From: a virus
DNA length: 20,955 nucleotides
Strand: one strand, 5' to 3'
Virus record (IMG/VR): IMGVR_UViG_3300037460_000183
Coordinates: 1-20,955 of that record
Shown one piece after another: positions 15,322 through 19,170 of the stretch. The stretch's first letter is position 1; each line of letters begins with the position of its first letter. Under the pieces are notes generated by a model. It had not been told where the DNA came from, ran no database searches, and saw only the letters and a program-made list of their open reading frames with translations. The position numbers were made by a program, and so were the translations under genes.

Positions 15322-17019
15322 TTATCTTCCCATGTGAGTGCGATAACCAGTAGCGTTCAGCTGACTCAAGAACTTCTCCTCGTCCCAAGCCTGCTTCTTT
15401 GAGTCTGGGAACAGAGGTATGATGCCGATGTTCTTCTCAACGTAGTCTTTCTCGGTCTGAGCATGTTCCATCATCTCAGCCTCACTCATCAGGGCCGGCC
15501 AGTAGTCCAAGCTCTGCGAGAATGAGTCCACTCCATCATCGTAACGAACATTAGGGTGGAACTCGAACTGTTCAACCAGTTCCGTCTGCGACTTGTGCAA
15601 CCAGACTAGGTTACAGTTGACTAACGGCTGGCAGGCCTTGATATGTTCTTCCTTAGCCCACTGTGCCTTCTCAGATCCCTGTGGAGGCCACTGAACCAAC
15701 GGAGGATACGGAAGATCTTCTCGTTCCGCCTTCTCATTGACCCAGTACTTCGTTGCTCCTTGATATCCACGGTACTCTACGGAGATTACCGAAGGTCTCC
15801 ACTTCTTATCTAGTTCAAAGAGGAGTTCAACAGCCTCATCGGGAGGATAGTGCCCTACATGGGCTTCTAGAACGATGCGGAAGGGGATTGGATACCCCTT
15901 TAGCAAGACTAGGATCGAATTCATCGACGATCCCTTCTTCTCAGCGCGAGATGGGTCGTATACTATGATCCTTTCCCCTCCCCAAGGGGAGACCTTAAGG
16001 AACAACTCGCCATCATGAGCACATATGATCGTTCTACCGTCAGGGGACCACCGCCAGAAGCGAAGGTTCTCGTCATCGAACGTATTGAGCCCCGTTCCCT
16101 TCGGACTGTTGGCGTATTGAGCGTGATAACGTTGAGGGTCCCACTTCTTCATCCTCATAAGGAAGGCCATTGAGTTCTGCTCGGGGAAGATGACCTCCCC
16201 ATTCTCAATATCCCTCCTCCAGAAGCAAGCCATCTCTCCTTTCTGCGTGGCATGAGGCCCAATCTCCTGAGTCTCGTAGCCATCACCATATCTCTTCTGC
16301 TGAACCTCGTAGAGATCCCCTTTCTTCTTCCGAGATCCTGTAAAGTCGATCAATCCTTCGATCTCAGAGTTCAGAAGGGACTCCAAACCTCCAGCCCATA
16401 CGTTCAGGGCCTCCATCTCAACATCAGAGCGGATACATTTCTCAGTTACGAGGTCGTCTGGGCGAATGATGTCGTAATGCCGGGACTCGATACCACCCAT
16501 AGCGCCAATGGCATCAATCGTGGGCTCCCTACGGACCTTATTCCGAGGGACGATCATCTCAGACTGCGACCAAACGGCCTTCGTAAAGTTTTCAGGGATC
16601 AACTCGGAGTACAACCAGCGGAACAACTCATTCATCATGAAGTGTTGCTGGATCTCCCTCATGAATCGAGAAGCATTGATCGCTGTATCCGCCACGATGA
16701 GGATGGTGACGTTCGGATCCTTGAGAATATCCTGGATCGACAGAGCGATTGTCCAGATGGTTGTCTTGAAGTGAGTCCGAGGCATCAACTTCAACCGCCT
16801 GTGAGCCTTAACCTCGTTCACGAAGCGGCACATCGGCATGTGGACATGAGGAACTAACTTATCGTAGCCGAGGATTACCTTACAGAGATAGTAGAGGTCT
16901 GCTTTACCAAGCTCCCTCATTCTCTCACGTGTATCCGGGTCTGGTGTCGCAGGCTTTTTCGGGAGATTCTCCGGTTCTGTGTTCTGATAGACAGAGTTCG
17001 GAGTGATTCCCTCAGTCAT
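15322..17019 (-). CDS. terL: Terminase large subunit
   Basis: This is the DNA packaging motor ATPase and nuclease. In the 565-aa form that starts at ATG 17019, the ATPase domain has an atypical Walker A, MPRTHFKTT (79-87, with K85). It is followed by VTILIVADTAINASRFMRE, the Walker B segment HYDIIRPDDLV (181-191, D188/D189), and the coupling motif FTGSR (226-230). The nuclease domain has IIVYDPSRAE (D355), VISVEYRGYQ (E415) and YDDGVDSFSQSLDYW (D495/D498). These fit an RNase H-type metal site. The start overlaps the terS stop by 8 nt (ATGACTGA), with AGGGGTGG upstream. A longer reading to 17064 lacks such a site. The portal gene is downstream, as expected for head-filling phages. Confidence 0.93.
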   Translation of the reverse strand: MTEGITPNSVYQNTEPENLPKKPATPDPDTRERMRELGKADLYYLCKVILGYDKLVPHVHMPMCRFVNEVKAHRRLKLMPRTHFKTTIWTIALSIQDILKDPNVTILIVADTAINASRFMREIQQHFMMNELFRWLYSELIPENFTKAVWSQSEMIVPRNKVRREPTIDAIGAMGGIESRHYDIIRPDDLVTEKCIRSDVEMEALNVWAGGLESLLNSEIEGLIDFTGSRKKKGDLYEVQQKRYGDGYETQEIGPHATQKGEMACFWRRDIENGEVIFPEQNSMAFLMRMKKWDPQRYHAQYANSPKGTGLNTFDDENLRFWRWSPDGRTIICAHDGELFLKVSPWGGERIIVYDPSRAEKKGSSMNSILVLLKGYPIPFRIVLEAHVGHYPPDEAVELLFELDKKWRPSVISVEYRGYQGATKYWVNEKAEREDLPYPPLVQWPPQGSEKAQWAKEEHIKACQPLVNCNLVWLHKSQTELVEQFEFHPNVRYDDGVDSFSQSLDYWPALMSEAEMMEHAQTEKDYVEKNIGIIPLFPDSKKQAWDEEKFLSQLNATGYRTHMGR

Positions 17020-17569
17020 CTGTGCCACCCCTAGGAGCTCCAGCCTCGAAGCCCACAGCCGCAACTTCCTCTACCTCTTCCAGCTCCTTCGGTTCCACCA
17101 CTTTGTACGAACCTCGATACTCCACCAGCTCTCGAGTCGTCTCCTCCATTCGATCTACCACTTCTTGAGGTAGCAACGGAGCAGCTTCTTCTCTCACTTC
17201 CCTCACTGGAGTATATCCTGCTCGATCGAGTAGTCCAAAGGCTGCTGTCTGCCGAACCTTCTCATTCCGTGAGGACCTGAGTTCTTCCACGATCTCATCC
17301 AATGCCTCATTAGCATAAAGCTTGATCCGCAGAGCAGTATCAACTGTCCTGTCCGCAACGTTCGCGGCGAGATTCTCGATCTCATAAATCGCTCTAGGAT
17401 CATTAAGGATAAGAGATATGTGGGACTCAGAGCAACCAAGCTTCTCGGCGATCTCTCTACCTTTGTCACCTGCTACATGCAAGGCAACGATCAAACGATG
17501 ACGAGGGTTCCACTTTTCAGGAGACCACTCCTTCTCACCGTTCAATGCTGGTAGCAGATCAACCGTCAT
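17012..17569 (-). CDS. terS: Terminase small subunit / HTH DNA-binding protein
   Basis: The chosen start is ATG 17569 (MTVDLLPALN), with GGAGAAGG close upstream. A TTG at 17605 would add 12 residues but has only a weak site. Residues 36-60 form a helix-turn-helix (GREIAEKLGCSESHISLIL). Helical sequence with an Ala/Arg-rich oligomerisation-like part follows (KVRQTAAFGLLDRAG), and the tail is acidic (PKELEEVEEVAAV). Small terminase subunits bind the packaging site and hand DNA to TerL. Size, HTH and overlap with terL support this. It is the first gene of the leftward block, next to the repeat-rich non-coding hub where its binding site may lie. Confidence 0.82.
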   Translation of the reverse strand: MTVDLLPALNGEKEWSPEKWNPRHRLIVALHVAGDKGREIAEKLGCSESHISLILNDPRAIYEIENLAANVADRTVDTALRIKLYANEALDEIVEELRSSRNEKVRQTAAFGLLDRAGYTPVREVREEAAPLLPQEVVDRMEETTRELVEYRGSYKVVEPKELEEVEEVAAVGFEAGAPRGGTDD

Positions 17570-17753: not shown

Positions 17754-17770
17754 TGTTCATACGTTGAACA
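17754..17770. promoter_or_regulatory. Palindromic junction element, copy 4
   Basis: Perfect TGTTCA-TACGT-TGAACA, 184 nt upstream of the terS start. On the minus strand it reads ATAGGTGTTCA...TGAACAAGATGG, closely resembling the flanks of copies 1 and 2. Confidence 0.82.
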
Positions 17771-17795
17771 CCTATCCCTTCGAAGATGGTCGTTC

Positions 17796-17816
17796 TTAAA
17801 AATTTTAGATATGTTT
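17796..17816. other. AT-rich tract, possible unwinding element
   Basis: 19 of 21 bases are A or T, including TAAAAATTTTA, in a region that is otherwise GC-balanced. It lies about 50 bp from the iteron array, the arrangement expected for a DNA unwinding element. A promoter role was considered, but no matched -35/-10 pair is clear. Confidence 0.4.
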
Positions 17817-17868
17817 GAGCTACCATTCTGGGGGATACGCTGCTCAATGGGGGGTTGCGGGGTACCCT

Positions 17869-17973
17869 CTCATGTTAATCGCAGCTGCCCGGTAGCCCCT
17901 CACCTTAATCGCAGTGCCCCCGTTCCCGCTCATGTTAATCGCAGGTTCCCGCTCCCTCTCACCTTATCCACAG
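17869..17973. repeat. Four phased iterons (29-30 bp period)
   Basis: Copies of a 16-bp core lie at 17869-17884, 17899-17914, 17929-17944 and 17958-17973. Copies 1 and 3 read CTCATGTTAATCGCAG. Copy 2 reads CTCACCTTAATCGCAG. Copy 4 reads CTCACCTTATCCACAG. The period is 30, 30 and 29 bp, about three helical turns, so all cores face one side of the DNA. TG and CC alternate at core positions 5-6. The linkers are C/G-rich and less conserved. Iterons like these bind replication initiators, repressors or small terminases. Confidence 0.85.
17964..17972 (+). promoter_or_regulatory. DnaA-box match inside the fourth iteron
   Basis: TTATCCACA is a perfect match to the E. coli-type DnaA box. It replaces TTAATCGCA at the equivalent place in the other three cores. 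By chance such a 9-mer is unlikely in a 105-bp array. It suggests that host DnaA may contact the array. Confidence 0.55.
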
Positions 17974-17989: not shown

Positions 17990-18004
17990 CTGCCACTTTG
18001 GCAG
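17990..18004. repeat. Short hairpin beside iterons
   Basis: CTGCCA-CTT-TGGCAG, a perfect 6-bp stem with a 3-nt loop, 16 nt past the last iteron core. No T-run follows, so it is not a standard terminator. It may be a protein-binding site. Confidence 0.5.
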
Positions 18005-18005
18005 G

Positions 18006-18092
18006 ATTCGCATTATGCCATAGATCGCAGCTTAACGTTGGCGGTTAAGGTGCTGCACCTGTATTATGCCGATTATTCGCATTTTACCATAG
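18006..18092. repeat. Paired 18-bp direct repeats
   Basis: ATTCGCATTATGCCATAG at 18006-18023 recurs as ATTCGCATTTTACCATAG at 18075-18092, two mismatches in 18 and 69 bp apart. A partial third copy, TATTATGCC, lies at 18062-18070. The pair brackets the inverted repeat at 18031-18049. Confidence 0.65.
18031..18067 (+). promoter_or_regulatory. Inverted repeat overlapping a weak promoter candidate
   Basis: CTTAAC-GTTGGCG-GTTAAG (18031-18049) is a perfect 6-bp inverted repeat. It covers a possible -35 (TTGGCG, 18038-18043), with TATTAT (18062-18067) 18 nt downstream. Transcription would run rightward towards the 118-aa gene. The promoter match is weak; the operator-over-promoter layout is inference. 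Confidence 0.3.
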
Positions 18093-18223
18093 TGTTTTGA
18101 CGAAACTGCATGTTAACCTGCTGGGTTGAAACCGTGTAACACGTTGCGGGACAACGACTTACGAGATCGAGCGGATTTGTGGCACGGTGGTTGCAATGTA
18201 TTCCACCAACATGGCCGAACCCA

Positions 18224-18241
18224 CACGGGCGGAACCCCGTG
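18224..18241. repeat. GC-rich hairpin upstream of the first rightward gene
   Basis: CACGGG-CGGAAC-CCCGTG forms a perfect 6-bp GC-rich stem about 75 nt upstream of the 118-aa start. It would lie in the 5' leader of a transcript from the hub. No T-run follows, so a terminator is unlikely. Confidence 0.45.
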
Positions 18242-18314
18242 GGACATGTGCAGGCGAAGTGACATACGTGCAGGGGCATCTCACACTCATTAGTTCTCTT
18301 GATAGGAGTTTGAT

Positions 18315-18671
18315 ATGTCTAGAATGCACACATGGAGTAGCAAGCCGACGGGTGGTACCTCACACGAGTTTACTCGTGAAGTCCCCACTGACGTTGACGA
18401 GACTGACCTGATAGTAGGTCTGTTCGGATCGACTGAACGGATGGTCTGGCACGCGGTCACTAGTGCGACGATCGCTGTAGCGCCGGGTCTACGGACGAGA
18501 CTGCCCAACGTAGAAGATGCGGTGGCCTACGCTAGGAACTTTGTAGCGGACGGTCGGAAAGAAGCCGCGTACGTTCGGAAGGTGAAGCGTTCTGCGGTGG
18601 ACGCGCAGAATTTCGATGAAGGACAGATGGCCTTCGTAACGGCCAACTTCGAGATCATCGAAGACGAGTAA
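18315..18671 (+). CDS. First rightward early-type protein (118 aa), unknown
   Basis: ATG 18315 follows AGGAG by 6 nt. The N-terminal 30 residues are polar (MSRMHTWSSKPTGGTSHEF). DETDLIVGLFGSTERMV and HAVTSATIAVAPG follow, then helix NVEDAVAYARNFVADGRKE. The C-terminus is charged and acidic (EGQMAFVTANFEIIEDE). There is no TM segment, signal or Cys pairs. It is the first gene right of the divergent hub, the usual place for early regulators or host-takeover proteins. No family is recognised and no HTH is evident. Confidence 0.72.
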   Translation: MSRMHTWSSKPTGGTSHEFTREVPTDVDETDLIVGLFGSTERMVWHAVTSATIAVAPGLRTRLPNVEDAVAYARNFVADGRKEAAYVRKVKRSAVDAQNFDEGQMAFVTANFEIIEDE

Positions 18672-19038: not shown

Positions 19039-19170
19039 GAGGTGTGAGAGCCCCTGGACACGGGTCTAAACTGTCCGACCTGCTATAGGATGAGTGACGC
19101 CAGCCCCTGATGTGAGCGGGGGGTGAGGCCCGCCCCTGCGCGCAGTATTTATATGTCTTGTGCGCGTAGT

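Follow-up and report, generated by a model that had tools for sequence, protein, structure and literature searches.

Sigma-54 requires an ATP-driven activator and senses host physiology. The enhancer sites (UAS) of such activators are commonly situated 70–150 bp upstream, with other layouts also known (PMC3844500), and in the norVW system several enhancer sites act as a scaffold for the hexamer of the activator NorR (PMC2941729). The use of sigma-54 by phages is rare but not unprecedented; the Pseudomonas phage YuA (Yuavirus) is the case cited, with a reported strict dependence on the host sigma-54 (PMC5053324). In the YuA record, three active −24/−12 promoters are annotated within the virion gene block, and in a sigma-54 scan these annotated sites match the canonical motif poorly. 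The locus described here resembles RpoN-dependent promoters with enhancers, such as norVW/NorR, in having a canonical −24/−12 motif and palindromic upstream sites; unlike in norVW, the candidate palindromes are those of phages and lie 65–250 bp upstream of the −24 element. Unlike YuA, it carries a near-perfect site that heads a replication-side operon and not a virion gene block. The same region contains an array of direct repeats, which we interpret, with a probability of about one half, as a lineage-specific regulator-binding array. It would be part of a switch between divergent late and replication operons, the latter probably transcribed with host sigma-54.

The window, i.e., the whole stretch of DNA analyzed here, is a 20,955-bp virus fragment of a tailed phage. 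Its leftward genes encode the terminase, an SU10-like portal and head proteins, and the rightward genes are small. On the minus strand, terL (terminase large subunit, 15322–17064) is accompanied by terS (17012–17569), whose product has an N-terminal helix-turn-helix; the terS start was set by a methionine conserved in relatives and, at 17569, is 36 bp inside the longest frame. The rightward (early/replication) operon opens on the plus strand with a gene at 18315–18671, which encodes a conserved protein of 118 aa of unknown family. The first-pass annotation had placed the array between divergent gene blocks and next to terS. The former is accurate, with the array inside a 745-bp divergent gap between terS and the first plus-strand gene; the latter is true in that terS borders the same gap, but 300 bp separate the array from the conserved TerS start. 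Directly to the left of the array lies a G-run block (17824–17863, minus strand), conserved in all seven phages, of the form CATTCTGGGGG...CAATGGGGGG...GGGGT, seen on the minus strand as C-rich boxes 21 bp apart, which is a candidate activator/−35 region of a leftward late promoter. It is followed on the same strand by a conserved A+T-rich stretch (17794–17814, TTCTTAAAAATTTTAGATATG), a candidate −10 region or unwinding element, and the layout of the two elements could be that of an activator-dependent late promoter facing terS. No known RNA families were found in the array region. At 18221–18245, the rightward operon has in its leader a G/C hairpin, CACGGG-CGGAAC-CCCGTG, whose loop reads CGGAA and which recurs with changed stems in several relatives; the overall folding energy of the leader RNA is no better than that of shuffles.

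The array itself is composed of four 16-bp cores on the plus strand: core 1 (17869–17884) and the identical core 3 (17929–17944), both CTCATGTTAATCGCAG, core 2 (17899–17914, CTCACCTTAATCGCAG) and core 4 (17958–17973, CTCACCTTATCCACAG). The repeat distance of 29–30 bp noted at first reading is reproduced by start-to-start distances of 30, 30 and 29 bp, and TRF reports a period of 30 with a score of 101. The alternation of TG, CC, TG, CC at core positions 5–6 (ABAB) is present in the window, and the proposed double unit of about 60 bp agrees with a self-match of 0.54 at 60 bp, as strong as the 0.53 at 30 bp. The suggestion that all cores occupy one DNA face, in contrast, does not survive: the core step amounts to 2.8–2.9 turns and not to the whole turns of a helically phased operator array, in-phase cores would need about 10.0 bp per turn, and at 10.5 bp per turn the cores fall at 0, 309, 257 and 171 degrees. 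Helical phasing was rejected because core 4 is about half a turn off core 1.

The cores are direct repeats, all oriented alike and without internal symmetry. Three cores of the window have the 10-bp word TTAATCGCAG exactly, and the fourth reads TTATCCACAG; the word is exactly kept in seven cores of two phages, where the spacers between them diverge. A weak internal half-match with an 11-bp step, CTCA-N7-CGCA, has half-sites that agree at only 3/4 bases, and its likeness to OmpR/PhoB-type direct-repeat boxes is speculative. The real intergenic region contains a 16-mer with three copies at ≤2 mismatches, a number reached by 0 of 300 dinucleotide shuffles; a looser shuffle test (16-mer, 5 mismatches) did not discriminate real from shuffled sequence. 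Elsewhere in the 20,955-bp record, no further copies of the core 16-mer were found at ≤2 mismatches.

Six other contigs bearing the gap were found in IMG/VR (L004/G001, L005/G002, L006/G003, L007/G004, L008/G005 and L010/G007), which together with the window represent seven phages of a small uncultured family with TerL identities of 77–93%. The TerL tree groups the window with G001 and G002, and G003 with G007; its deepest forks are unresolved. Searches by TerL profile, first-gene profile, portal and G-block pattern revealed no more gap-carrying phages, none were found in GTDB genomes, and there was no meaningful DNA relative among phage and plasmid records. A 33-bp match to an Arthrobacter phage (E 0.2) was taken as chance, and the distant relative MW202554, with only 62 bp between its divergent genes, was not useful for comparison. 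The longest relative, G004 (47.8 kb), encodes a PD-(D/E)XK exonuclease, an SSB-like protein and a ParB-methyltransferase on its rightward side. The same contig, taken in reversed orientation, carries at about 0.9–3.3 kb a fusion of DNA polymerase A with an N-terminal uracil-DNA-glycosylase-like domain; located at the other contig end, across the contig join, this gene may share a transcript with the rightward operon. The replication genes of this relative's rightward side (exonuclease, SSB-like protein, ParB-methyltransferase and PolA with the UDG domain) favor a replication role of the operon in the proposed switch.

The gap also contains a sigma-54-type −24/−12 element on the plus strand at 18180–18195 (TGGCACGGTGGTTGCA, TGGCACG-GTGG-TTGCA). 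It is situated 135 bp ahead of the first rightward gene and conforms to the canonical TGGCACG-N4-TTGCW in its GG at −24, its TGC at −12 and their spacing. GGCAYG-N4-YTGC could be aligned in all seven phages, 120–137 bp ahead of the start codon that opens the rightward operon; the invariance of the alignment columns is partly built in, as the rows were anchored on the pattern, and the distance to the gene and the rank within each genome are independent of this anchoring. In the sigma-54 scan, the site is the best or tied best in five of the seven genomes, scoring 13/14 in the window, 14/14 in G001 and 12 in G002, G003 and G007. The G005 site scores 11 and is tied with chance sites, and that of G004 is weak (GGGCACG-N4-CTGCC). 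In the 174 kb there are five matches to the strict form TGGCAYG-N4-YTGCA, all of them at this site, with 0.03 expected. YuA failed as a positive control for the scan, which accordingly picks up canonical sites only. Taken together with its sequence, the position of the element makes it a putative working sigma-54 promoter; the presence of sigma-54 in the host of the phage is assumed. No sigma-54 activator (PF00158) was found in the phage contigs, all of which are fragments.

The palindrome TGYCA-N3-TGRCA, represented in the window by TGCCACTTTGGCA at 17991–18003, is a candidate enhancer site (UAS) for such an activator. It was found at 12 places, one or two per genome in all seven genomes, each of them inside the gap and none outside it in the 174 kb, against 1.0 expected genome-wide. 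Neither this palindrome nor a sigma-54-type site was present in 36 unrelated contigs that match the G-block by chance. Placed upstream of the −24 element in all seven phages, the palindrome may be an activator site.

Further palindromic sequences occur in the region. The near-palindrome TTAACGTTGGCGGTTAA and CGCATTTTACC, at 18028–18092, are common only to the window and the distant relative L008 (G005), and this patchy occurrence suggests that regulatory pieces may be exchanged. Another palindrome, GTTCATACGTTGAAC at 17755–17769, is one of six copies of GTTCA-N5-TGAAC in the window (639, 7707, 14643, 17755, 19172 and 20012). The seven phages carry 45 copies, 4–10 per genome and in both operons, mostly at gene boundaries, where they often follow directly on a stop codon and precede the next start codon by a few bases. 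They recall the start-associated sequences of Cluster K mycobacteriophages (PMC3203893), from which they differ in sequence. In four phages, the GC-rich word CCCCTGCGCGC (19130–19150 in the window) is located shortly upstream of a GTTCA-N5-TGAAC copy.

The sequence of the array varies between relatives while its flanks stay. Counted from the start of the conserved AATGGGGGG block, the cores begin at 23, 53, 83 and 112 in the window and at 23, 53, 84 and 112 in the sister phage G001/L004, which also has four cores, in the order CC, TG, TG, CC (ABBA); ABAB order was consequently rejected as a defining feature. G004 has one core, at 23; in G005 the cores are degenerate and begin at 21 and 50, with a weaker third noticed by eye. 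Single motif copies also occur elsewhere within the same gap in G001, G002 and G004. At the array position of G002, three 26-bp units TTCGGT-N5-TTCGGT stand in place of the cores, and G003 and G007 are without an array, each having one TTCGGT pair on the opposite strand and closer to the rightward promoter. These pairs step by exactly 11 bp, as do OmpR/PhoB-type direct-repeat boxes, and TTCGG-N6-TTCGG was not found elsewhere in these genomes. Relatives that share the gene order and lack the array, named by the first-pass annotation, along with a missing replication or terminus signal, as an argument against its proposals, thus exist in three of the seven phages (G002, G003 and G007). Since a core sits in or near register in G004 and G005 as well, the simplest reading would be an ancestral core followed by amplification, loss and replacement. 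Turnover of the array between constant flanks is as expected of regulator sites that switch their partner.

Of the origin, pac and operator roles first offered for the array, the operator fits best, because the array is part of a divergent control region and is flanked to the left and right by promoter-like elements that are conserved; the pac option is weakened and the origin keeps some probability. As a regulator-binding array, the four head-to-tail sites would be recognized by a sequence-specific DNA-binding regulator of the phage or the host. To the left, the candidate elements would form the late (packaging/virion) promoter; to the right, host RNA polymerase with sigma-54 would start the replication operon at 18180–18195, activated by looping from upstream sites, for which the palindrome at 17991–18003 is the best candidate. 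Given that the phage contigs, though incomplete, encode no sigma-54 activator, a host activator is the natural candidate. The array, which lies 200–310 bp upstream of the sigma-54 promoter and borders the candidate late elements on their upstream side, could serve as a docking site for a further regulator and tune one or both promoters. Such a regulatory role is inferred from its position, its turnover and its co-location with these elements. The asymmetric cores and the weak 11-bp half-match would suit a head-to-tail dimer, which is speculative. Against the regulator reading, many operators are palindromic, whereas these cores lack symmetry and form direct repeats in the manner of iterons.

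This last property leads to the strongest rival, which we consider unlikely, although well ahead of the remaining ones: that the array is an origin element, with iterons for a phage initiator, a host DnaA box and the A+T-rich stretch at 17794–17814 as the unwinding site. A comparable combination of short direct repeats in one orientation with a DnaA-box sequence and nearby A+T-rich DNA is known from iteron origins such as lambda ori, P1 oriR and those of iteron plasmids, and replication genes are found in the operon to the right. A perfect DnaA box, TTATCCACA, lies inside the arrays of the window (17964–17972, within core 4) and of G005, and these are the only ones in those records; core 4 also holds the sole TTATNCACA of the window record. 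The sister phage, however, has four cores and no DnaA box, and the DnaA box was rejected as a general identity of the cores, as it is not matched by 7/8 cores of the window and G001. A check of GC skew, proposed at first reading, placed the minimum at 17996 in the window, beside the array, and in most relatives in the gap near the array or the G-block (in G004 at 29734, with the anchor at 29809), but divergent transcription confounds this signal completely. Relatives should retain an origin, yet G003 and G007 lack the array and G002 has unrelated repeats in its place. Unlike in iteron origins, where repeats are conserved among relatives with the same replication module, three of the seven phages are without the array here, close relatives included. 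No initiator/Rep gene was found in the available contigs, all fragments.

Less probable still is that the spacer is prone to repeats and that the array, with no bound protein, is only a tandem duplication, left over or neutral. The copy number, order and even sequence of the repeats vary between relatives, two of which are without any array, in its favor; against it, TTAATCGCAG stays exact in the seven cores despite the diverging spacers, and single motif copies recur in the same gap in G001, G002 and G004. Least of all do we credit a TerS-binding packaging site, pac or cosB-like: the array lies 300 bp upstream of terS and its 16-bp direct repeats are similar in length and number to the lambda cosB R sites, but, unlike in cosB or pac sites, its presence does not follow the TerS recognition helix, which is near-identical in G002 (SESHVSLILNDP vs SESHISLILNDP) where the array is gone, G003 and G007, whose TerS proteins are 72–76% identical, are likewise without an array, and no relative's contig ends at the array, with no end repeats found.

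Returning to the regulator-binding array, a bolder form of it, tentative and in our view rather doubtful, is that the whole family has placed its replication operon under the control of host sigma-54 and an enhancer-binding protein and swaps arrays to change the gating regulator, be it of the host or of the phage. Replication would then begin only when the activator of the host is on. If the main reading holds, the early/replication side of the phage switch would depend on sigma-54. The array itself is of an ordinary kind, a presumed protein-binding direct-repeat array, in an unusual control region. What makes the locus worth following is the conserved sigma-54-type promoter with palindromes private to this gap, together with the way in which phages of 77–93% TerL identity have exchanged whole arrays at one fixed site; this exchange would offer a natural series for the rewiring of a promoter to a new regulator.
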